Positions 4,098 to 25,969 of a stretch of DNA of 27,497 bases are shown one piece after another. The position numbers were made by a program, and so were the translations under genes. Position 1 is the stretch's first letter. Every line of letters begins with the position of its first letter. The notes under the pieces are model-generated. The model was given only the letters and a program-made list of their open reading frames with translations, did no database searches and was not told where the DNA came from. This DNA comes from Dichomitus squalens LYAD-421 SS1. Lineage: Eukaryota; Basidiomycota; Agaricomycetes; Polyporales; Polyporaceae. Location of the stretch: positions 3,532 through 31,028 of the forward strand of contig NW_006766925.1 of the NCBI RefSeq assembly GCF_000275845.1, written 5' to 3'.

Positions 4098-5734
4098 CTA
4101 CGACGTATCTTCGACCTCGTTCTCTTCATTGCCATCTTCATGGAGCGAGAGCTGGGCGCCCAAGGACCCAATGAAGCGGCTCGTGTTCCTCGACGTCTGC
4201 GGTTGGAATTCCAGTTCCCCGAGTGAGACGGACCGAGAAGAACCTGCCAGTTTGCGCTGGGTCCTCTGCAGGTCAATCAGGAATCTCGACGTGATGATGG
4301 CGGTCAAGCTAGACACAGTATCACAGTGAGAAATTGGCAGGGAAGCAACGCGGACGTACGGTTCCTCGAGAATAGCGATGACACTTGTCAATGAAGCTGT
4401 ACCGCTCTCAGCGACCTGGAAAATGTCAACAAGATACCGTCATACTAAAGTGCGGCTCACCCTAGTCAGAGTAAATGCCATATGGAGAACACTCAGAGTG
4501 AGCAATGCTCTTGTAACTCCTGGTAAGATCATTGGCTGCCCTTGACACGAGTGGGTATACTCACAAGAAATAGATTGTCCCTGTGATACGAGAGTGATTC
4601 AATGATAAATGCGTCACGCTCAAATGGAGGCCTGCATTTACGCACCATCCAGGAGAAGAATGTTTGCGAAGGTTTCCTTACCAAGGCTACGGAGAGACAG
4701 CCTGACAGTCTCATATGTTCGGTACCAGGTAACGCAGAGAACCACTAGATCAGAAGCAATCAAAGAAGATCGCGCCGCCACCATCACTGTGATGTCTCGC
4801 CTCAGAACGTGCCTCTGCGGAACATAATCTTGTGAAATATCCGCTTACGTCTGCGATCTGCAACGTTAGATATCACATTAAAGCAGTGTCGCAGTGAACT
4901 TACTTCAGAGTTGTGCTCGCCGATATTGAATGCAAGGGTATTATGCCCAGTTGCGGATCGTCGACAACTGAAAATCTGTACAAGTTGGACTTTGGGAATA
5001 CAATTTGATGCTGGTTGGGCATGGCCAATTCAGATTACGCACCCACATATTCGTGGCGATGGGCACCGAAGAAAGTGCGAAAACAGTCGCTGAAACAGGC
5101 CATCGATAAGGGTTGGGACATAAAGCATACGACCTGAGTGCTGAAAATGCTGCATGACAAAGAGGCTGTCAGAGCTGCCAATTCGCGTGGAGCATAGAGC
5201 GGTCACGTACCAGCCCATGGGAGATACTGCAAGGCCCTCAATACAGCATAAGCAACATAATCCGAAAATACACTGCGCATGCGTCAGAACCGTCGCACAA
5301 TTCAGGACCTGTCGAGAACACTGTATACCTCTGACACATTGTCAAGCATTCATCCACACATGCTAGAGGTAGAAAGACATACCTCCACAGACAAAAGGGG
5401 TGGGACCACATTCACTATTTGTGCAGCGAGAGTGACGTATCGGTTTAGGAGAAAGAGAATTGTCGCTCCGGACAGGCGGCCCCCCATCCAGAAGAGTGTG
5501 ACCTCGTAGCTGAATGTGAGGATGTAGTCGTAAACCAATAGTGCTGCGAATGAGGACACATTCCGCTTGTGAGTACATGCACGGCCTTGATTGCCTTCAT
5601 GAGGAACGAACCAATGGCGGCCGCTATCCAATACTCTGTGAAGCTAGACGGAAGTGTAGTAGTTACATGAGGTGCAGGGGCTACAGCACTTACAAGACCT
5701 CGAATATGGCCTCAGCCTCTGAGTTGTCTGCCAT
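4098..5734 (-). CDS. DUF6533 seven-helix membrane protein, copy 1 (13 exons, 321 aa)
   Basis: Exons in transcript order: 5694-5734, 5612-5643, 5383-5543, 5329-5330, 5211-5272, 5043-5149, 4904-4989, 4849-4850, 4646-4786, 4565-4580, 4461-4509, 4360-4415, 4098-4308. Together they make 966 nt with no internal stop. The start ATG opens MADNSE, as in the other copies. Residues 25-60 carry the DUF6533 signature (ALLVYDYILTF, EVTLFW, FLLNRY). About seven hydrophobic segments follow, including LQYLPWAAFSALRSYAL, LIASDLVVLCVTWY and the ILLLDGTIYF region, and then an acidic tail (RNTSRFIGSLGAQLS) that is probably cytosolic. The family is a fungal heptahelical, GPCR-like group of unknown function. All splice sites are GT-AG. 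The two 2-nt exons are forced by the reading frame. The exon model is an inference without transcript data. Confidence 0.9.
4849..4850 (-). other. predicted 2-nt micro-exon AC (exon 8, copy 1)
   Basis: It lies between a 53-bp intron (4851-4903, ends GCAG) and a 62-bp intron (4787-4848, GTAAGC to CACAG). It joins AA|AC|TG to give AAA CTG (KL) and continue into VAARSSLIASD. Confidence 0.7.
5329..5330 (-). other. predicted 2-nt micro-exon AG (exon 4, copy 1)
   Basis: It lies between a 52-bp intron (5331-5382, GTATGT..., branch-like CTTGAC, GTCAG) and a 56-bp intron (5273-5328, GTATAC..., CTGAC, GCGCAG). AG plus the first T of exon 5 makes the serine codon in VE-S-VFSDY. Confidence 0.75.
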
Positions 5735-7736: not shown

Positions 7737-8399
7737 ATGGCGCAGGAGGAGGTGAGAAGAGCAACACTCAGGTCCATTATCACGGACGAACCTTGCGCTC
7801 ACCCAACAGATGTACTTCCATGGGAGTCCTTGTATCGGTCACCATACACTGCGCATGCGCCTGCGTCGCAGACTTTCGTCGAGAGGGTGAAGTTGTTCCG
7901 CACGCCGATCAACTACATCAACGGGGACTCAGGCTCGAGAACGGACGTGGACGACCCGGCGGTTTGCACGTACAGGCTGTCCAGGTTGGACGACAAGTAC
8001 CCCGAGTACGTGGAATTGCTCGCGGCCCAGACCGTCATCAAGCAGGCCGTCGCGTTCCACAGGCTCGTGCCTTTCGAGTACATCGGTGCTACTGGTTCGC
8101 CCTACAACTTCGCTCTGGGTCCGGTTTGCCTCCTGGAGGCTGCGAACGAGGGTCTGACTCGCAATACAGCCCTTGCCATCGCCGGTCCTGCCGTCCCAGC
8201 CACGGCCGCCCTCACTCCGGTCCTGCGGATCCCTCATAGCGATGGGTATAGTGCTCAGTACGGTGTCCCAGCGCTCTGCCCAAATTCGCTCAACGTGAAC
8301 CTGCGCCCTCGACTACGACTTGTACGTCCCGCATGTCCAGGCAGTGCCATGACGGAACACGGGCCCATATGCCCCTCACCGGCCCGCTGCGTAGCCTGA
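7737..8399 (+). CDS. family B hypothetical protein, 220-codon open frame
   Basis: This is the longest plausible plus-strand frame outside the DUF6533 genes. Codon usage looks protein-like in the middle (FVERVKLFRTPINYINGDSG, then RLDDKYPEYVELLAAQ and a PFEYIGATGSPYNF segment). I recognise no domain, signal peptide or membrane helix. The related sequence at 702-1500 keeps the same blocks with stops. Similarity between the two continues past this stop to about 8700, in another frame (YDLYVPHVQAV here, YNLYAPHVEAV in the other copy). The last third of this frame may therefore be a frameshifted or wrongly spliced extension. It could be a surviving gene or a recent pseudogene. Confidence 0.4.
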   Translation: MAQEEVRRATLRSIITDEPCAHPTDVLPWESLYRSPYTAHAPASQTFVERVKLFRTPINYINGDSGSRTDVDDPAVCTYRLSRLDDKYPEYVELLAAQTVIKQAVAFHRLVPFEYIGATGSPYNFALGPVCLLEAANEGLTRNTALAIAGPAVPATAALTPVLRIPHSDGYSAQYGVPALCPNSLNVNLRPRLRLVRPACPGSAMTEHGPICPSPARCVA

Positions 8400-9933: not shown

Positions 9934-11598
9934 CTACGATGTATACTCGACGTCGTTCTCTTCACGATCATCCTCGTGAAACGAGAGCTGGCCTCCCAAG
10001 GACCCAATGAAGCGGCTCGTGTTCCTTGACATCTGCTGTTGGAACGCAACTTCTCCGAGTGATACTGATCCGGAAGAGGAGTCCTCCAGCCTGCGCTGCG
10101 CCTTTTGCAAGTTGATGAGGAACCTCGACGTCAGGATGGAGGTCAGACTGGATACAGCATGTCAATGAGAGTTTGGAAGTAGGGTGCAACGTAGACATAC
10201 GGTTCCTCAAGTAAAGCAATGACACTTGTTGGACCAGACGTATCACGCTCAGCGACCTGAGAATTGTCAGCAAAAAACCATCACACCAACGCATGACTCA
10301 CCCCAATAAGAGTGAACGTCATTTGTAAGACGCTCAAGATCAGCAGTGTTCTGTTCCTTTCGTATGAGGACACTATCTGAAGAGCCGGGAATGGCTGCAT
10401 CTACTTACACGAAGTAAATGGTCCCTGTGTGGATGTGAGGTAGCGCTTCAGTACAAATTCATCGGGCTTTGCTAACAAGATTAACTTCGCACCATCCAGG
10501 AGAATAATACTTGCGAAGGTTTCCCTTTCGCGTTCGCGCTCACGGAGGGATAGTCTGGCCGTTTCATATGTTCGATACCAAGTGACACATAGGACCACTA
10601 AATCGGATGCGATGAGACAAGATCGCGTCACGACCTCCACTGTCATCACCTATCTCAGAACGTGCGTTTGCCAAACAGAATCCGGTGATCCATGCACCTA
10701 CATCTGCCATCTACTGCGTCAGAGAGCACGTCAGAAAGCCGTGCGAGAACTTGCTTACTTCAAGTTCGTGCTCGCCGATATCGGAGTACTGAATGTGATA
10801 CCCAGGACGGGATCGCTCACAATTGACAGCCCGTGAAGGTTGGCCTTTGAGGGGAGATTTGATGCTACCCAAGCATGCAAAATTCGGTGTACGCACCCAC
10901 ATATTTATGACGATGGGCACCGACGCAAGCGCAAAAACACTTGCTGATACGAGCCATCGATACGAATCTGGGGACAGAGCATACGATCTGAGCGCTGAGA
11001 ATGCTGTATGGCGAAGTCGATTTTCAGAGCCGAGAACTCCGGAAATAGCATAGGGAAGTCTCATACCAGCCCATGGGAGATATTGTAAAGCTCCCAACAC
11101 GCTAGCAGCAACATATCCCGAGAATGCACTGTGTATGCGTCAGAAGACGTTTTCAGAGAAGTATGAAGATCACTCAGTACCTCTGCTATAGTATCAGACA
11201 TTGATCCATGCACGCAGAACGTAGGATGACATACCTCCACAGACGAAGGAATAGGGACCAGATTCATACTTTGCGCCGCGAGAGTGATGTATCGATTCAG
11301 GATAAACAAGACTGTTGCTCCCGACCGGTGGCCTCCTGTCCAAAAGAGGGTTACCTCGTTACCAAACGTGAGGGTATAATCGTAGGCCAATAGTGCTGCA
11401 TGACATGACACCATCTGGCCGTGAGCACTGGCACGACACTCATTTTTTCATGAGGGACCAACCAGTGGAGGCAAATGTCCAGCAATTTGTGAAGCTAGAT
11501 ACGAGCGAATGGGTTAGACTCTCGGGTACAGGAGCATTAGCACTGAGCTGTACTCACAAGGTACTATATGCGACCTGGACCTCTGAGTTGTCCGCCAT
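9934..11598 (-). CDS. DUF6533 seven-helix membrane protein, copy 2 (13 exons, 324 aa)
   Basis: Exons in transcript order: 11558-11598, 11463-11494, 11235-11395, 11181-11182, 11067-11128, 10897-11003, 10759-10844, 10702-10703, 10493-10639, 10409-10424, 10302-10350, 10201-10256, 9934-10147. The total is 975 nt, open throughout. The signature reads ALLAYDYTLTF, EVTLFW, FILNRY. This copy groups with copy 4: both have TFGNEV, RWLVSASVFALASVPIV and a 147-nt exon 9 that is two codons longer than in copies 1, 3 and 5. Here the extra length falls in a charged loop (RERERERE) between helix 5 and the LLLDG motif. One extra serine occurs in the C-terminal tail (DSSSGSVS). The upstream 600 bp match those of copy 4. 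Confidence 0.9.
10702..10703 (-). other. predicted 2-nt micro-exon AT (exon 8, copy 2)
   Basis: It is flanked by a 55-bp intron (10704-10758, ends GGCAG) and a 62-bp intron (10640-10701, GTAGGT to GACAG). The join AA|AT|TG gives KL before EVVTRSCLIASD. Confidence 0.7.
11181..11182 (-). other. predicted 2-nt micro-exon AG (exon 4, copy 2)
   Basis: It is flanked by introns of 52 bp on each side (11183-11234, ends AGCAG; 11129-11180, GTACTGAG to ACACAG, with CTGAC inside). Reading through either intron alone hits a stop in this copy. Confidence 0.75.
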
Positions 11599-12200: not shown

Positions 12201-12429
12201 CAATCAGCCGTAGCCATAGAGGACTACCAGTGACCGGTCACGGCAGGCGGTGAAGGACCTCGGTGTGGAGTACACCTGCGGCATATCAAAATGCATGTCT
12301 ATCTCTAGGCCAACTGCTACTGGCTCGAGAACAGCCTCCACGAGCGCGCAGATGACCCTCCCCGCCGAGCCCGCTGCCAGATTGAGCTCGGCACACCTCG
12401 ACAAGCTGTAGCTATCGGTTGAGAAAGAA

Positions 12430-13130
12430 TGCGTTACGGGTATGTGCCTATGTGGATCGCTCATGCAGCTCTCGCTGAACAAGGAGCCCGGAAGGCTAGC
12501 TCGCAGCTAATCATCTCTGTGACATACAAGACGTCATCGACATTTCCAAGTAGTACAGCGACAGCGTCCCCCCAGCGTTCCGCGTTCTCTATGCCTATCC
12601 ACATCTTCATCTCCACCGTAGTGTCCGTACGCCGTTGGTCACAAGTGCTAACGTCGTCTCCGCAGAATTCAGCCTCGACTTCCACATTGATGTATAGGTT
12701 CCCCGAGAATGTACTTACTCACCAGTCTCTGCGACATGCGACGCCGATCACGGCGATGTGCTCGTTAAGTGAGAATGTCGGCCTCGTACCTCAAGGCTCT
12801 TGCCATCGAGGTGCGTCTTCGCATCTTGTATTGCATCATACTTCAACACGTCTTCTACTTTCACGCTTGACCCAAGCCAGGGAAACGGACCGACTCTCTA
12901 GCCCCACTCATAGACCAGGCCAACGACTGCATCCTTGTCCCCCACGCGGCAACCTCAACCCATTCTTCAAACCCGCTTCTGAGCTTCCGAACATCCACAC
13001 GGGGCCTGAACTGGAGCTGAGCAGGACGTGCAAGAGCGGGGAATGCACGATAGGGACATTGGGACGTGCGCGTGAGGAAACAGTAGCCTAGGAAGGAAGA
13101 GAGGTGATCCAGGAGAAGGCGAATAGGACG
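12430..13130 (+). pseudogene. family A fragment between DUF6533 copies 2 and 3
   Basis: The block CGCTGAACAAGGAGCCCGGA near 12474 matches CGCTGACCAAGGAGCCCGGT near 6983. A TTCAGCCTCGACTTCCACA block near 12667 sits where the MDFSFDVY-type exon is found in other copies and is followed by an in-frame TAG. The stretch ending near 13050 corresponds to the GTCCATGATGGCTGC/GGACGTGCAGGAGCGG region of other copies. The long plus-strand frame at 12429-13091 crosses these blocks in a different register, so it is probably fortuitous. Confidence 0.35.
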
Positions 13131-13589
13131 AGTGAGACGTCCAGCACCGGCTTTCACAGTCTCACAGGCAATGGTAGGAGGAGTGTTGAGGCTCGAAAAT
13201 CGAAGTGATCGTGGGCGAGGATGCACATTTGCTGAGCTATGGGCCGTTGTTGTTGGAGATACTGATCGATTAATGTTGTACCTGAAGGAGGAGGGGGGCA
13301 TCCGGACGTGCTGCTCCCGGAAGTGTCTTTGGCATGTTGTGGGTTACTCACCCTCGGTAGTATAGACCCCTTATCCCTCGGGCTGCGCGGCATGAGCCCA
13401 CACTCCTGCGCCGATAGCTTGGACGGCAGCTCCGGTGAGCGCGGGTGCACCTGCGCCATACGGCGCAGTTTTTTGATAACTAGTGCTTTGAGCGAGTCAT
13501 ACAGGATGGATGAAGAATGAAGTCGGCATGAGGGTCGATGATAGATGGACGTTGCCCGTGGGCAACCCGACGCGTCGGCGGTCGTGGCG
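13131..13589. other. spacer between two family A fragments, no gene seen
   Basis: A long minus-strand frame covers part of this stretch (13154-13783), but it overlaps the family A block downstream. It shows no hydrophobic pattern, no conserved counterpart in other modules and no recognisable domain. Confidence 0.35.
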
Positions 13590-15320
13590 AGGATAGTGGC
13601 GACACGTGATACATTTCTCTGTGCGCTTCTGCTCAAAGCAGACGAGCAGCCATTCACGCACAGACAACTGCTTCTCTTCCTGCTGCTTCTTGGTTGACCC
13701 TTGGACACAATGGAGCCTCTCCAAGCGACTATCCCTGGCTCTTGCTTGGACGAGAAACTGCGATATACTGCTGCGAAAGACACCGGTTTTTCACAGCCCG
13801 TCTCAAGGAACCTGACAAGGGCAACTACGTCGTCTCCGACCTTGCTTGCCAGCTAGCACTTGCCGCGAACCAACCAGGTGTGAACGACATCATATGCATG
13901 CTACTGAAGAGCGGCTTTTCCCAGGCATGTACTCGCAAAGACCCTCATGCAGTCACTTGACCAAGGATCTCGATGGGCCAACTGGCAGCGGCCGTCCACT
14001 TCTGCGACGCACACTACGCCCCAACACATCGAGTCGCGCTCTCGCTGCGCGCCATGCCGCATTTCAAGCACTCTCCTGTTGACCTAACGTAACAGGTAGG
14101 CAATCTTGGTGAGTCCGCACTTCTGCGCCTTCTCCGCGCTTTGCGTCCCATCTTCCGTCTCATCTCCATGTTCAGGTGTGTGATGTTCGTGCCTCAGCGG
14201 TCCACGATGCTCATGCTACCTCTACAGATTGTGAGTTTGACGCTTATACCAAAGCTCGCGCCCTGTCGTACATCGAGAGCCCGCTCACACAGTAGTTTTC
14301 GCGGTACGTGTCGTTGGACTTGACTATATGCTCACCTGGGATCAGCCTCGCGAGCTTCAGAACCGTCGCCGTCGACTCAGGTACCCTTCCGTTCGTGCCG
14401 TCTCACTCTCACATCTCCCTGCTTACAAACGTCTTTCCGACTAGTACTGGCCTAGGTTTCCTGCCATGATGGGATAACTGAGTCCATGCTTTACCCTGCC
14501 TTCGTCATCGACAAAGCCAATGGCTGCGTCTACGTCCTATCCCTGATGCAAGTCCGGGTCGGTGCTTTCAAATACATACGCGCTCACGACGGCAACTGCG
14601 GGGCTGACCAGAGGCCTGCGCATGACCTTCCGGACGTGCGGGGGCAGTGGATCGGCGCCAGGGAGGGGTGGGCGCAGGGGAGAGCAAGTGATTCAGGCAG
14701 GAGGGTGGCTATACACGAGAAGTGCGTGAGGCAGAAGAGGATGGGTGGGATATGGGAACAGACCTTAAAGGACAACGATAGTGCGAGGCTCATTCGGCGT
14801 TGGTACACTCCAATACGTCAGCGCTATGTCCTGCATTAGTTCAAGGCAGTACGTGATTCAAACGACAGGAAACGTCTCCGGGGTGCGATGGAGGTGCTGA
14901 ACTGGCACACGACAGACTGTCCATCTGGCTCTACGTGAACTAATTTCGAGCGTGCATCTGACTCTTACGCCACATATCGGCACTATATGCCCTCTCCAAC
15001 GCAGGGAGAAGGGACTGAGATTGGCCACCCGTCCTCGCATCTTCGCAATCTGGCCGTGGGGGGTCTGCACACGCTTGAAGCTGTTTAAACTGTCCACGTT
15101 GCCACACTACTTGGGCCTGCCTTCTGCAGACTCCTGTTCCCGGAGACCGTCGAGGGAGTTTTGCTGAATTGGATTTTGCAGTGCTTCGCCACACATGCCT
15201 TCCACTGACCGTTGACAGCTTCGCGTTCACTATACCGGACAGGGCGTCGTGACCAGTGGCCTTGCCGTACTCGTGCTTGGGAGTTCTCAACTCGAGATAC
15301 TCGGTGTCATCCTTCTGTGA
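13590..15320 (+). pseudogene. family A copy upstream of DUF6533 copy 3 stop
   Basis: It starts with GCGACACGTGATACAT, related to the CACGTG element of other copies. A candidate start at 13710 (MEPLQATIPGSCLDEKLRYT) and a second frame at 13790-13925 (GNYVVSDLACQLALAANQPG) hold protein-like segments in different registers. A later block at 14230-14300 (TTGACGCTTATACC, then TACATCGAGAGCCCGCTCAC) corresponds to the YLENLLT exon but runs into TAG. The last block at 15212-15305 encodes a hydrophobic stretch (VVTSGLAVLVLGSSQLEILG, then VILL and a stop), so the original protein may have ended in a membrane segment. It is decayed overall. Confidence 0.45.
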
Positions 15321-15793: not shown

Positions 15794-17430
15794 CTACGAC
15801 GTATCTTCGACCTCGTTCTCTTCACCGTCATCTTCGTGGAACGAAAGCTGGGCTCCCAAGGGCCCAATGAAGCGGTTCATGTTCCTTGATGTCTGCGGTT
15901 GGGATACAACTTCCCCGAGTGAGATTGACCTAGAAGAGCCCGCGAGCTTGCGCTGGGTCCTCTGCAGGTCGATAAGGAACCTCGATGTAAGGATGGCGGT
16001 CAAGCTAGACACAGCATCGCTGTTAGGATTTGGTCATAAACCACAGCCTAGACGCACGGTTCCGCCAGAAAAGCGATGACACTGATGATTCCAGCTTCAT
16101 CGCTCACAGCGACCTGAGAGTTGTCAGCAAACTACCATCATACTGAATTGCGGCGCACCCCAGCCAAAGTAAACGCCATCTGGAGGACGCTCAGGATGAG
16201 CAGTGCCCTGTCATGTCATGATGAGATCGAGGGCTGACCTGGACACTAGTGCGTGTACTCACATGAAGTATATTGTCCCTATAACAAGAGAGCGCTTCAA
16301 TGATACATGCGTAGGGCTCAAATGAAGGCTTGCACTACGCACCATCCAGGAGGAGAATGCCTGCAAAGGTTTGTTTGCTACGGCTATAGAGAGACAGCTT
16401 GACTGTCTCATATGTTCGGTACCAGGTAACACAGAGAACCAATAGATCGGAAGCAATCAAAGAAGATCGCGTCGCCACCTCCACTATCAAATTTCGCTTC
16501 AGAACGTGCCTCTGCTTATCATAATGCTGTGATGAACACAAGTACTACATCTTCCACCTGCAGCGTCAGACATCACATCAGAGAAATATCACTGTTAACT
16601 TACTTCAGGAGTGTGCTCGCCGATATTGGTTGAGTGGTTATGATGCCCAGTGTCGGATCGTTGACAAGTGACAGTTTGTACAGGTTTCCCTTAGGTGGAA
16701 TTAATACTGCTCGGTTGTGGCAGACACAGGGTACGCACCCACATATTCACGACGATGGGAACCGAAGAGAGGGCAAAAATGATTGTTGAAACAGGCCATC
16801 GATAATGGTCGGGACACATAGCATATGACCTGAGCGCTGAAAATGCTGCATGACGAAAAGGCTGTCAGAGCTGCGAATTCGCGTGGAGCGCAGGGCATTC
16901 ACGTACCAGCCCATGGGAAATATTGTAAGACCCTCAATACATTGTAAGCAACATATTGCGAAAATGCACTGTGCATGCGTCAGAACCGTCGCACAATTCA
17001 GAGCCTGTCGAGAATACTGTATACCTCTGAGACAGTGTCAAGCTTTGATCCACACATGCTAGAGGTAGAAAGACATACCTCCACAGATGAAGGGATTGGG
17101 ACCGCATCCAACATTTGTGTCGCAAGAGTGATATATCGGTTGAGGAGAAACAGAATTGTTGCTCCGGAAAGGCGGCCTCCCATCCAGAAGAGTGTTACCT
17201 CACTGTTGAATGTGAGGATGTAGTCGTAAAACAATAGTGCTGCCAATGAGGACGCAATCCCTCCGTCAGTGCGTGCTCGGCGTTGATCGCTTGTATGAGG
17301 AACAAACCTGGGGTGGCGTATCCCCAGCAAGTTGCGAAGCTAGACGAAAGTGTAGTTGTTACATCGCGTGCAGGGGGTACAACACTTACAAGGCCTCGGA
17401 CACGGCCTGTACCTCTGAGTTGTCTGCCAT
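15794..17430 (-). CDS. DUF6533 seven-helix membrane protein, copy 3 (13 exons, 321 aa)
   Basis: Exons in transcript order: 17390-17430, 17308-17339, 17079-17239, 17025-17026, 16907-16968, 16739-16845, 16604-16689, 16549-16550, 16343-16483, 16263-16278, 16159-16207, 16058-16113, 15794-16004. Total 966 nt, the same exon lengths as copy 1 throughout. The signature reads ALLFYDYILTF, EVTLFW, FLLNRY. It groups with copies 1 and 5 (WMGGRLSG, LSLYS/LSLRS loop without the two-codon insertion). Differences include ATCWGYATP in exon 2, SAFSQYVAYNVLRVLQYFPW in helix 3 and NMNRFIGPLGAQ instead of NTSRFIGSLGAQ in the tail. No frameshift or stop is seen. Confidence 0.9.
16549..16550 (-). other. predicted 2-nt micro-exon AT (exon 8, copy 3)
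   Basis: The 53-bp intron 16551-16603 must end at GGAAG rather than at a CAG seven bases earlier. The following 65-bp intron (16484-16548) starts GTAGTA and ends GATAG. The join gives KL before EVATRSSLIASD. Confidence 0.65.
17025..17026 (-). other. predicted 2-nt micro-exon AG (exon 4, copy 3)
   Basis: It is flanked by a 52-bp intron (17027-17078, ends TCTCAG after CTTGAC) and a 56-bp intron (16969-17024, GTATAC to GCACAG). The joined codon is AGT, giving VE-S-AFSQY. Confidence 0.75.
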
Positions 17431-20469: not shown

Positions 20470-22121
20470 CTACAACTTATCTTCGCTCTCTTCACTGTCA
20501 TCCTCGTAGAACGAGAGCTGGGCCTCCAAGGACCCAATAAAGCGGCTGGTGTTCCTTGACATCTGAGGTTGGAACGCAACTTCTCCGAGTGACACTGATT
20601 CGGAAGAGTCATCCAGCTTGCGCTCAGCCTTCTGCAAATTGATGAGGAACCTCGATGTGAGGATGGAGGTCAGTCTAGATTCAGCATGTCGGTGAGAATT
20701 TGGCAGTGGGGTGCAACGCAAACATACGGTTCCTCGAGCAAAGCGACGACACTTGTTACGAAGAATGGACGAGCGGCGACCTGGAACAGGTCAGCAAAAG
20801 ACCATGATACGAAGGCGCAGCTCACCCCAGTCAGAGTGAATGACAGGTGGAGAATGTTCAAGATGAGCAATGTCCTGTAATTTCAAAATGAACAAACTGG
20901 ATGGTGGAATGCTAGGCATGGCTGCATCTACTCACATGAAGTACACGGTCCCTGTGGTCATGTGAGGCAGTGCCTCAGTGCTGATTCATCCGGCTTGAAC
21001 GGTGAGTTCGAGTACGTACCATCTAGAAGAATGATGCTTGCGAAGGTCTTCCTTCCGGGTCCGCCCTCACGGAGAGATAGCTTGGCGGTTGCATATGTGC
21101 GGTACCAGGTGACATACAGAACGACTAAATCAGATGCGATCAAAGAAGATCGCGTCACCACCTCCACTGTCGTGCTCAATTTCAGAATGTGCATTTGATA
21201 AACAGGGTCCTGTGAGCCGTGCACGTACGTCTGCCATCCGCGGCGTCAGAAAGCACATCACGGAGCCGTATGAGCAATTGCTTACTTCACGGTTGCGCTT
21301 GCCGATATCGGAGTACTGACGATGACACCTAGGACCGGGTCGCTGACAACTGACAGCTTGTGTAGGTTGCCCTATCCGGGGAGTTTATTGCTACCCAAGC
21401 GTGCAAAATCCGGTGTACGCACCCACATATTTGTGACGATGGGTACCGACGCAAGAGCAAAAACGCTTGCGGATACAAGCCACCGACACGGATATGGGGA
21501 CAGCGCATATGATCTGAGCGCTGAGAATGCTGCATGACGAAGTTGCTGTTCAGAGTTGTCAACTCCAGACAGAGCATAGGGCAGTCCCGTACCAGCCCAT
21601 GGGAGGTACTGCAAGGCGCCCAACACGCTCGCAGCAACAAAATCGGAAAATGCACTATGTATGCGTCAAAAAATATTATGGAAAAGTATGAAAATCACTC
21701 AGTACCTCTGCTACAGTGTCAAGCATTGATTTTCGAACGCAAACTGTATAATGACATACCTTTACAGACGAAGGAAGAGGGGCCAGATTTATACATTGCG
21801 CCGCGAGAGTGATATATCGGTTCAACACAAACAAGACTGCCGCCCCGGACATGTGGCCGCTCGTCCAGAAGAGTGCAACCTCGTTGCCGAACGTGAGCGT
21901 ATAATCGTAAGCCAGCAGTGCTGCATAAGACGGCGCAATCGGCTCGTGAGCACGTGCACGGTCTCCAATTCATTCATGAGCGACGAACCAGAGGAGGCAA
22001 ATGTCCAGCAATTCGCGAAGCTGAATATGAGCAAATGGGTTAGATCGAGTGTGGGGGTATTAGCACTAAGCTATACTCACAAGGTCCTATATGCGATCTG
22101 GACCTCTGAGTTGCCCGCCAT
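20470..22121 (-). CDS. DUF6533 seven-helix membrane protein, copy 4 (13 exons, 320 aa)
   Basis: Exons in transcript order: 22081-22121, 21989-22020, 21760-21920, 21706-21707, 21593-21654, 21423-21529, 21286-21371, 21229-21230, 21020-21166, 20936-20951, 20826-20874, 20728-20780, 20470-20674. Total 963 nt, open. It starts MAGNSE rather than MADNSE. The signature reads ALLAYDYTLTF, EVALFW, FVLNRY. The long exon 9 (147 nt) carries a REGGPGRK loop where copy 2 has RERERERE. Exon 12 is one codon shorter (VAARPFFVTSVVALLEEP) and the tail ends EDDSEESEDKL. Exon 3 ends SSVK instead of SSVE, but its donor (GTATGT) is intact. Confidence 0.9.
21229..21230 (-). other. predicted 2-nt micro-exon AC (exon 8, copy 4)
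   Basis: In this copy the acceptor GGCAG at the end of the 55-bp intron 21231-21285 is the only AG near that position, so no longer exon can be drawn. The next intron (21167-21228, GTACGT to GACAG) is 62 bp. The join gives KL before EVVTRSSLIASD. Confidence 0.75.
21706..21707 (-). other. predicted 2-nt micro-exon AG (exon 4, copy 4)
   Basis: It is flanked by a 52-bp intron (21708-21759, CTTGACACTGTAGCAG end) and a 51-bp intron (21655-21705, GTACTGAG to CATAG). The joined codon is AGT, giving VK-S-AFSDF. Confidence 0.75.
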
Positions 22122-22954: not shown

Positions 22955-22990
22955 CGTCACGTGGCAGGCGACACGTCGGCGTCTGAGCGG
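22955..22990 (+). promoter_or_regulatory. CACGTG motif upstream of family A remnant
   Basis: It reads GTCACGTGGCAGGCGACACG and then GGCGTCTGAGCGGC. It is a diverged form of the motif at 6618 and 18611, followed by the same GCGTCTGA and CGACTCGGA strings as at 6646-6670. Confidence 0.4.
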
Positions 22991-23900
22991 CGACTCGGAA
23001 TTGATGGAAACGGCTACACTTTCTATTTCTATCTCCTTGATTATGCTCGCGCATCCTCGCTCATACCCCTGAGCTGCATCTTGGTCTTGCTGCTTAGTCG
23101 ACGCCGCAGTCAAGCCCTCCTTAGGCGCTCGAATACACTCACCCTCTTGATGTTTGTCGCAGGACCTATGCGAGGCTGCTCACTGATATGCAGGATACAG
23201 TGCGAATTGACACCATGGAAAAGAGATCATGCAGGAGTAGGAGACGAGGAAGAAGGAAATACATGGAATACGGTGGTAAGCTTCCAAGGGAACAGTGGTG
23301 GGGGCAGTCGATTATGGTGTTGTCGGTATGTTGACCCTATATGCTTAGTAGTTGACCAATGCATGCCGATCGTGGTTCGGACTACAGCAGGCGTTTGTGC
23401 ACGGTGCATCGGCGATGCTGGACCTGGCATAGGACGGACTCGATCCGGAGAAGCTGCTAGTGAGATACGTCAGTATACTGCGGTCTGCCCTTGCATGTCA
23501 ACACGAGCTATCTCTTGGGCTTCATCTGATACTTACGTGTCAGCTCGCCGTCTTACATTCATACTCGACTCAGGGGCAGAAGAGAGGCTTGGGATTGGTC
23601 CGCTTGTCCTCACGTCGTCGGATTTTGAACGCGGGGTAGTCTAGGTACGCCACGAGGCTGCCGATTCCGTCCACCCTCCCACCTTAGGCCGAGCTTCTCC
23701 CATTTACGAAGGCCGTCCGGGGATTGAGGCTCGAGACTTTCCTGTTGTCGGAGGGGTCACTCCACCGCGTCCCTCATCACGACCGTTCGTGGCCTTGCAA
23801 TGACCATTCTGTACCGAACCGTTGTCACCAATCGTCGTGACTCTGCCATAATTGTGCTCGACATCTCTAGGCTGGCTGTGTTAGCGTTCTGGGTGCGAGA
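22990..23900 (+). pseudogene. family A remnant upstream of DUF6533 copy 5
   Basis: The GTCGACGCCGCAGTCAAGCC block near 23098 followed by a GCAGGACCTATGCGAGGCTGC block matches 7577-7670 and 19280-19350. The 3' part near 23690-23850 matches the hydrophobic-tail region of other copies. A 227-codon plus-strand frame (22961-23644) starts inside the promoter-like motif and crosses these blocks in varying register. It looks like a fortuitous open frame across a pseudogene, although a rearranged real gene cannot be excluded. Large internal deletions make this the shortest module. Confidence 0.4.
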
Positions 23901-24321: not shown

Positions 24322-25969
24322 CTACATTGCATCTTCGACCTCGTCCTCTCCGTCTTGGAAACCGTCACGAAACGACAGCTGGACTCCCAAAGACCCAATG
24401 ATGCGGCTGGTATTCCTCGACGTCTGCGGTTCGAAAGCAAGTTCCCCGAACGAGACCGACCTGGACGAGCCCGCGAGCTTGCACTGGGCATTTTGCAAAT
24501 CAATGAGGAATCTCGATGTCAGGATAGCGGTCAAGCTAGACACGGTGTCTTGTTGAGAATCTGGCAGTGGGATGCGATGTGTACTTACGGTTCCTCGATA
24601 AAACTGATAACGCTTGTGAACAAAGTCGTTCCGCCCTCAGCGACCTGGGAATTGTCAGCAAGATACCGTCATGCTAAAGTGTAGCTCACCCCGGTCAGCG
24701 TAAACGTCATTTGCAGGACGCTCAAGACCAGCAGCACCCTGTGGATTCCAGAAAGTGAGAACGTCGGTTGATCTAGGCATGGTTTCATGCACTCACATGA
24801 AGTAAATCGTCCCTGTGAAAAGTGAGCGCGTAAGATCATACTCATCAGGCTCAGGTAATAACCTGTAAGACACACCATCTAGGAGAAGGATCCCTGCGAA
24901 AGATTCCTTGCGAAGGCTACGGAGAGATAGCTTGGCAGTCTGATATGTTCGGTACCAGGTAACAAAGAGGACGACCAAATCAGAGGCGATCAAAGAGGAT
25001 CGCGTTGCCACCTCCACTGTGATGTCTCGCCTCAGTATGCGTCTCTGCTAATCATAATCCTGTGAAACGTTCGCCTACATCTTTCATCTGCAACGTTAGA
25101 CATCGTACTAGAGCATTGGCACCGCAAACTTACTTAAGGACTGTGCTCTCCGCTATTGGATTAGTGGGTAGGATTCCCAGTTCCGGATCATTGACAAATG
25201 ACAATCTGTACAGGTTGCCCTTTTAATGGAATGGAAATCTCAGCTTTGCGAAGACATATATAATCCAGAATACGCACCCACATATCCGTGACAATGGGCA
25301 CCGCAGAGAGTGCGAAAACAGTCGCTGAAACAGGCCATCGATAGGGGCATGGACATAAGGCATACGACCTGAGCGCTGAGAACGCTGTGCAACAAATCGG
25401 CTGTCAGAGACCCTGTCGACTCTATCCAGAGCGCGGAGCAGTCACGTACCAGCCCATGGGAAATACTGAAAGGCCCTGAACACATTCAGAGCAACAAACA
25501 TAGAAAAAGCACTGTGTATGCGTCAGAATGCGTAGTCCGGAGTCTATGGATATCGCTGTATACCTCTGCAACAATGTCAAGCATTGATCCGCCCACGCTA
25601 CACGTAGAAAGACATACCTCCACAGATGAAGGGAACGGGAACAAACCAATAATTTGTGCTGTGAGAGTGATGTATCGGGTTAGGAGAAACAGGATTATCG
25701 GTCCGGACAGGCGGCCTCCCATCCAGAAAAGTGTGACCTCGCTGCTAAACGTGAGGACGTAGTCGTAGGACAATAGTGCTGCGGATGAGGACGCATTCCG
25801 CTCATGAGTACGAGGGCGGCGGTCATTGCCTTCATGAGGAACAAACCAATGCAGGCGTATGCCCAACAATCACCGAAGCTGGACGAAATTATAGTGGGTA
25901 CATGACGTGCAGGGGCTACGGCACTTACAATACATCGTACAAGGCCTGAACCTCTGAATTGTCTGCCAT
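24322..25969 (-). CDS. DUF6533 seven-helix membrane protein, copy 5 (13 exons, 322 aa)
   Basis: Exons in transcript order: 25929-25969, 25847-25878, 25618-25778, 25564-25565, 25450-25511, 25278-25384, 25134-25219, 25079-25080, 24876-25016, 24797-24812, 24690-24738, 24589-24644, 24322-24535. Total 969 nt, open. The signature reads ALLSYDYVLTF, EVTLFW, FLLTRY, with threonine replacing the asparagine of the NRY motif found in the other four copies. It groups with copies 1 and 3 (MGGRLSG, LSLRSLRKESFAGILLLDG). Helix 3 is more diverged (SAFSMFVALNVFRAFQYFPW), and the tail ends DGEDEVEDAM. Confidence 0.9.
25079..25080 (-). other. predicted 2-nt micro-exon AT (exon 8, copy 5)
   Basis: The 53-bp intron 25081-25133 must end at GAAAG, skipping a CAG seven bases upstream. 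The next intron (25017-25078, GTAGGC to CACAG) is 62 bp. The join gives KL before EVATRSSLIASD. Confidence 0.65.
25564..25565 (-). other. predicted 2-nt micro-exon AG (exon 4, copy 5)
   Basis: It is flanked by two 52-bp introns (25566-25617, CTTGACATTGTTGCAG end; 25512-25563, GTATAC to ACACAG with CTGAC). The joined codon is AGT, giving VE-S-AFSMF. Confidence 0.75.

Follow-up and report, generated by a model that had tools for sequence, protein, structure and literature searches.

A probable two-nucleotide exon between two complete introns in the DUF6533 genes of Dichomitus squalens

How can two coding blocks of one gene be joined when the frame of the second requires two bases that neither block provides? 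This question is raised by five DUF6533 genes in a 27,497-nucleotide stretch of the genome of Dichomitus squalens LYAD-421 SS1 (contig NW_006766925.1, positions 3,532 to 31,028), to which we refer as the window. A preliminary description, made from the letters of the window, had proposed that each gene carries a two-nucleotide exon, AG, between two short introns. The search for DUF6533 genes in the genome recovered all five copies, and the Pfam domain (PF20151) was recognized with 52.3 bits in copy 1 and 50.1 bits in copy 3, against a curated cut-off of 24.1. Over 54 residues, exon 3 of P0010, a gene model of the same strain, shows full identity to exon 3 of copy 1. The window also holds four uninterrupted open reading frames of at least 200 amino acids with an ATG, GTG or TTG start, at 7737-8399 (+), 12429-13091 (+), 13154-13783 (-) and 22961-23644 (+). 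None of these four had a Pfam match at E 0.01, and comparison of 7737-8399 (+) with 12429-13091 (+) revealed them to be unrelated to each other.

An exact position check found AG between two introns at the proposed coordinates in all five copies, on the minus strand (Table 1). As had been described, exon 3 ends in phase 0, with SVE in copies 1, 2, 3 and 5 and SVK in copy 4, and the flanking introns lie within the 51-56 bp given for them. In every copy, both introns have a donor and an acceptor of their own. Intron 1 reads GTATGTC...CAG in all five copies, while intron 2 begins with GTATAC or GTACTG and ends with CAG or TAG. After intron 2, exon 5 opens with TGCATTTTC and similar sequences, and the product of copy 3, joined with AG, reads IPSSVESAFSQYVAYNVLRVLQYFPWA.

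Table 1. Positions, in the window, of the exons and introns around the predicted two-nucleotide exon in the five DUF6533 copies.
Feature	Copy	Position	Strand	Remarks
Exon 3 (DUF6533 exon)	1	5383..5543	-	phase-0 end ...SVE; start inferred at GCAG/CACT acceptor; Pfam PF20151
Intron 1	1	5331..5382	-	52 nt, GTATGT...CAG
Two-nucleotide exon AG	1	5329..5330	-	
Intron 2	1	5273..5328	-	56 nt, GTATAC...CAG
Exon 5	1	5211..5272	-	62 nt, VFSDYVAYAVLRALQYLPWA
Exon 3	2	11235..11395	-	
Intron 1	2	11183..11234	-	52 nt; tandem acceptor TAG/CAG
Two-nucleotide exon AG	2	11181..11182	-	
Intron 2	2	11129..11180	-	52 nt
Exon 5	2	11067..11128	-	62 nt
Exon 3	3	17079..17239	-	
Intron 1	3	17027..17078	-	52 nt
Two-nucleotide exon AG	3	17025..17026	-	
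Intron 2	3	16969..17024	-	56 nt
Exon 5	3	16907..16968	-	62 nt
Exon 3	4	21760..21920	-	
Intron 1	4	21708..21759	-	52 nt; tandem acceptor TAG/CAG
Two-nucleotide exon AG	4	21706..21707	-	
Intron 2	4	21655..21705	-	51 nt, acceptor TAG
Exon 5	4	21593..21654	-	62 nt
Exon 3	5	25618..25778	-	
Intron 1	5	25566..25617	-	52 nt
Two-nucleotide exon AG	5	25564..25565	-	
Intron 2	5	25512..25563	-	52 nt
Exon 5	5	25450..25511	-	62 nt

The frame requires exactly two extra bases, both in the five copies and in the family parse described below. Indeed, one intron spanning both introns gave the wrong frame in all five copies and a stop in copy 2, in agreement with the preliminary description. Its statement that reading through intron 1 meets TGA in several copies did not hold, as TGA occurs inside the intron in copy 1 only. 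Retention of intron 2 leads to a stop in copies 1-4 and leaves copy 5 open but out of frame. We then enumerated parses from 75 nt before donor 1, requiring an open frame. Copies 1-5 allowed 186, 80, 67, 82 and 106 two-intron GT-AG parses, respectively, of which two were common to all five. Both of these put AG at the predicted place and they differ in donor 1, the second taking a GT located 6 nt upstream. Intron, AG, intron, which had been put forward as the sole arrangement that works, was the only kind among those enumerated to fit all five copies. Across the 21 codons formed by AG and exon 5, moreover, the variable columns among the five copies number 5 at codon position 1, 6 at position 2 and 13 at position 3, which fits coding in the predicted frame.

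The survey was extended to the genome (40.35 Mb, 116 contigs), where at least 150 DUF6533 hits were scored, a lower bound since 204 candidates were seen. The query of the search for relatives carried residues upstream of exon 3 that are intronic or wrongly joined, and it was used only to find relatives. With three further loci, the 150 scored hits gave 153 loci for parsing (L001-L157 minus four duplicates). On visual inspection, most of the sequences listed show CAG-AG-GT flanked by two introns of 50-60 nt. The first family parse used splice-site scores and open frames only, without a protein profile, and allowed a middle exon of 0-12 nt; a length of two (k=2) came out on top in 100 of 113 loci. 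Two other schemes were discarded. Scoring by the profile alone while accepting every GT and AG proved too permissive (k=2 on top in 49/113), and the profile with splice scores but without exon 6 put k=2 on top in 74/113, a count explained by single-intron candidates that could reach exon 6.

Both were replaced by a full parse that combined the protein profile, splice scores and exon 6, and weighed k=2 against k=0, 1 and 3-12, one intron and none. The splice scores were derived from 69 examples of intron 3, themselves picked partly by site quality; CTRAY was found in 24 of the 69, and the later scores took no account of branch-site motifs. The profile comprised 16 proteins from outside Dichomitus squalens, 12 of them gene models of other species. 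At the junction, twelve of the 16 align without gap or insert and four differ by one or two residues. These proteins had been picked for crossing the junction, so the profile leans towards the right frame, and with it k=2 was the best parse in 128 of 153 loci, with a median margin of 10.9 bits. An earlier run of the full parse had given 92 of 113; locus L041, which had no first match, was left out of the 113-locus runs and included in the later ones.

The 25 loci in which k=2 was not on top consist of four near ties, four loci within 3 bits, six intron losses and eleven others. In the near ties (less than 0.7 bit), the competitor was a 5-nt exon through a tandem acceptor in three cases and a 10-nt exon in one. 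The 128 winners and the four near ties (L014, L017, L028 and L032) form the set of 132 loci used hereafter. The four loci within 3 bits of k=2 (L030, L048, L091 and L099) and the eleven others (L002, L024, L054, L063, L064, L086, L110, L131, L143, L147 and L150) were not counted as two-base genes. When the intron interiors were dinucleotide-shuffled, k=2 won in 8 and 10 of the 132 loci, compared with 128 of 132 unshuffled; as these loci had been chosen as k=2 winners or ties, the shuffle tests specificity and not rate. This control used the same junction-crossing profile, which the 100/113 parse did not.

Thus, what had been described as the same feature in five genes stands, but it is family-wide and its letters need not be AG. 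In the set of 132, the two bases are AG in 82 loci, GG in 12, GA in 10, AC in 8, CT in 6 and AT in 5, followed by CG (4), CA (2) and TC, AA and GC (1 each). Their length is conserved while the letters vary, a pattern that coding bases would show and a mere splice motif would not. Phase 0 at the two-base exon was found in 132/132 loci, the residue following the junction is Cys in 96/132, and exon 5 measures 62 nt in 127 of the 130 loci with a called intron 3. Intron lengths, by comparison, spread over all residues modulo 3 (39, 50, 43 and 39, 41, 52). Donor 1 is GT in 130 loci and GC in 2, and donor 2 is GT in 131 and GC in 1; the GC donors beside the two-base exon belong to L109 and L149 (donor 1) and L141 (donor 2). 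The observation is confirmed at the level of the DNA, and it is larger than first described.

The strongest evidence that the two bases would be coding is provided by natural intron losses. Two loci have lost intron 1 and carry the two bases on exon 3: L057 reads CAG AA, a single intron, then A TGT (Gln-Lys-Cys), and L112 reads CAC GG, intron, C TGC (His-Gly-Cys). Three others have lost intron 2, and after the remaining intron they read GCG TGT (L047), AGA TGT (L076) and ACT TGC (L126), with an exon 5 of exactly 64 nt, that is, 62+2. The sixth, L155 on contig C29, reads AAT AGC TGT without a break at the site, and it is less clean as a case of loss because an extra, unusual 93-nt intron lies just upstream and its exon has 88 nt. 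In a tree of 138 joined peptides, which is built on few columns, leaves many forks open and has a bootstrap that had not converged, L112 and L126 (contig C18) are sisters with opposite intron losses (support 100/99), and L155 is sister to L153, which carries the two-base exon AC (support 100/90).

The DNA therefore contains two introns, two coding bases, a fixed phase and the natural loss of either intron. Taken together, these data argue strongly that each gene has a two-nucleotide exon between two complete introns, and that this is an old feature of DUF6533 in this genome; we regard this reading as very probable, and the interpretation given in the preliminary description is supported by it. 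Inclusion of the two bases would be, we infer, the normal, constitutive product.

We considered other ways in which exon 3 could be joined to exon 5. In copies 2 and 4 and a few other loci, an upstream tandem acceptor could yield a 5-nt exon, CAGAG, which would add one Gln and would exist beside the two-base form. Both copies have the tandem acceptor TAG-CAG-AG (11183-11188 and 21708-21713), at which the longer exon scores equally and keeps the frame; in L014, L017 and L028 its score differs from that of the two-base exon by no more than 0.5 bit, and an AG lies 3 nt upstream of acceptor 1 in 7/132 loci. However, copies 1, 3 and 5 have no tandem acceptor, and the extra residue is lacking in them and in most of the family. 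We judge this form rather unlikely, and hypothesize that copies 2 and 4 may make both products.

A single intron with other splice sites, for instance with its donor 10 nt farther upstream (GTCTGT) or its acceptor within exon 5, is a much less probable solution. Taken singly, each copy does permit such joining (12, 17, 10, 21 and 21 open parses in copies 1-5, with GT or GC donors and AG acceptors), and gene models P0002 and P0003 resemble joining through the -10 donor. Nevertheless, when parses were enumerated starting 75 nt ahead of donor 1, no single-intron open parse was common to all five copies. Copies 3 and 5 lack the -10 donor, and copies 2 and 3 lack the inner acceptor (TTGCAG/TTTCAG). 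Likewise, the family parse prefers the two-base exon in most loci, and the copies that lack intron 2 have 62+2 nt.

We hold it to be still less probable that the introns form a strict stwintron, in which an internal intron interrupts the external donor, or undergo recursive splicing, in which an acceptor abuts a donor. The two introns do follow in direct succession, and consecutive splicing of adjoining introns has been published in fungi, as far as the available part of that report goes (PMC8469720). Both mechanisms, however, leave zero bases in the mRNA, and k=0 came first in one of the 153 loci, L143, where the parse is an odd one. In the DUF6533 genes, both introns are complete, the split falls two bases upstream of donor 2 and interrupts no donor, branch or acceptor element, acceptor 1 does not abut donor 2, and two bases are needed between the outer exons and survive in the intron-loss copies. 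The preliminary description had named a nested (stwintron-like) or sequential route as an alternative account of the same join; the strictly nested version fails, since with no bases left between the exons the frame is wrong, while sequential splicing of two complete introns is likely. Finally, that the copies are pseudogenes and the frame mismatch a sign of decay is scarcely credible: L024 has broken sites and no acceptable parse, but the same two-base gap, flanked by open exons, recurs in about 130 genes, and changes in exon 5 of the five copies are in excess at third positions. L024 (contig C25, 271115-274300) itself looks decayed, with donor 1 and the exon 5 region not recognizable.

With the two-nucleotide exon as the preferred reading, our model suggests how the join would be made. 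Two complete U2-type introns, mostly of 50-60 nt, would lie two bases apart in about 130 genes, the two-nucleotide exon giving the first two bases of one codon and exon 5 the third. Because acceptor 1 and donor 2 are separated by two bases, there is hardly room for two complete sets of splicing factors to occupy them simultaneously. As the sites are too close for joint use, the introns should be removed one after the other. Intron 1 would probably leave first because it is transcribed first and donor 1 is the stronger, its score exceeding that of donor 2 in 99 loci of the set of 132 and falling below it in 29. Its removal would join the two bases to exon 3 and thereby provide donor 2 with a normal exonic side. 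Skipping of the two bases would shift the frame, and in 89/132 loci a stop follows within exon 5 or the next 120 nt. If intron 1 is kept, a stop lies inside it in 77/132 loci, and if intron 2 is kept, a stop is met in 127/132. Regulatory use of such skipping is possible.

To see how the join is annotated, 56 proteins listed by a mixed-alignment search were aligned, and the join was judged at the protein level. The predicted join is present, without gap or insert, in eleven gene models of other polypores, which belong to Ganoderma, Lentinus, Trametes, Epithele and Lenzites (P0016, P0019-P0023, P0026, P0029, P0033, P0048 and P0061), an example being TDKSCNASV at the junction of P0016. The same holds for P0046 of Dichomitus (PSVESVFSGDVA). 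Several Dichomitus gene models appear to be mis-joined here. Among the models that depart from the predicted join, P0010 omits exon 5, P0001, P0004 and P0013 continue into intron 1, P0005 retains intron 2, and P0015 carries four surplus residues. P0017 and P0018 deviate in the exon 5 region, part of which is missing from several further proteins. Public DUF6533 models therefore need checking at the two-base join, beside a conserved cysteine. Four 'lgn' proteins come from contigs of 1100-1940 bp; P0062 (contig of 1315 bp) and P0066 (1100 bp) span the junction without a gap, while P0065 and P0070 span it with one or two residues more or less. As P0065 and P0066 fill most of their contigs although the genes are intron-rich, a cDNA origin is suggested, and P0062 and P0066 may be cDNA-derived. 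The Cys directly after the junction (C96 of P0016, the first row) is invariant in 16/16 rows of profile alignment A3, in which a second Cys, C164, is nearly invariant; a receptor-like disulfide between C96 and C164 is conceivable.

Single-nucleotide exons have been described in APC11 of Arabidopsis (PMC4674806) and in APC11 and VPS55 of land plants (PMC8831610). According to the available portions of these papers, the plant genes resemble DUF6533 in having an exon of fewer than 3 nt that annotation overlooked and that is flanked by two complete introns, and in having intronless copies that hold the base within a larger exon. They differ in that the plant exons involve one base and two gene families and were demonstrated by transcripts (for APC11 also by reporter constructs), whereas the DUF6533 exon involves two bases and about 130 genes of one family and is predicted from DNA. 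In fungi, the excerpted report on CYP621A of Fusarium (PMC12940212) describes a single-nucleotide exon confirmed by reads. This ultra-short exon was likewise inferred from exon phases that do not match, a double-length intervening sequence and a relative without introns; it has one base and an identical AGGGT throughout the subfamily, whereas in DUF6533 the letters vary within a large paralogous basidiomycete family. Very small exons, the shortest of 6 bp, together with introns of 45-55 bp are reported, in the part available, for the P450 genes of another wood-decay fungus, the white-rot Phanerochaete chrysosporium (PMC1184071). The Hypoxylaceae stwintrons (PMC8469720) share two consecutive splicing reactions on adjoining introns; in the sections at hand, their internal intron splits or sits within the external one and no exon remains, whereas in DUF6533 the introns are complete and two bases remain.

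No report of a family-wide two-base exon, nor of a comparably large set of exons shorter than 3 nt in one genome, was found in the literature searched (DUF6533, two-nucleotide exons, fungal microexons, smallest exons and recursive splicing), which mostly excluded subscription papers; the only paper matching two-nucleotide exons dealt with a disease database, and the DUF6533 literature found, in its accessible parts, contained nothing on splicing. The novelty lies in the number of genes, in letters that are free to vary and in introns lost naturally. As a wider and tentative proposal, the exon could be ancestral, fixed in length and nearly free in sequence, across the DUF6533 genes of mushroom-forming fungi, so that many hundreds of genes might depend on obligatory two-step splicing. 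As skipping would shift the frame, the exon could then switch a receptor-like, seven-helix family on or off.

The family comes with built-in controls, namely variable letters at a fixed length and sister genes that lack the left or the right intron. With them one can test how the spliceosome copes with introns separated by two bases, in which order they are removed, and how a two-base exon persists through a large gene expansion. The family also includes a gene of fruiting-body patterning. In the available part of its description, Snowball (snb1) of Coprinopsis cinerea is a DUF6533 gene with seven predicted transmembrane helices (PMC10949477); it shares the protein domain with the window copies, the comparison being one of domain and not of gene structure. 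In Dichomitus squalens, the DUF6533 family is very large, with at least 150 hits in a 40-Mb genome, many of them clustered (for example on contigs C14, C32, C72 and C2).
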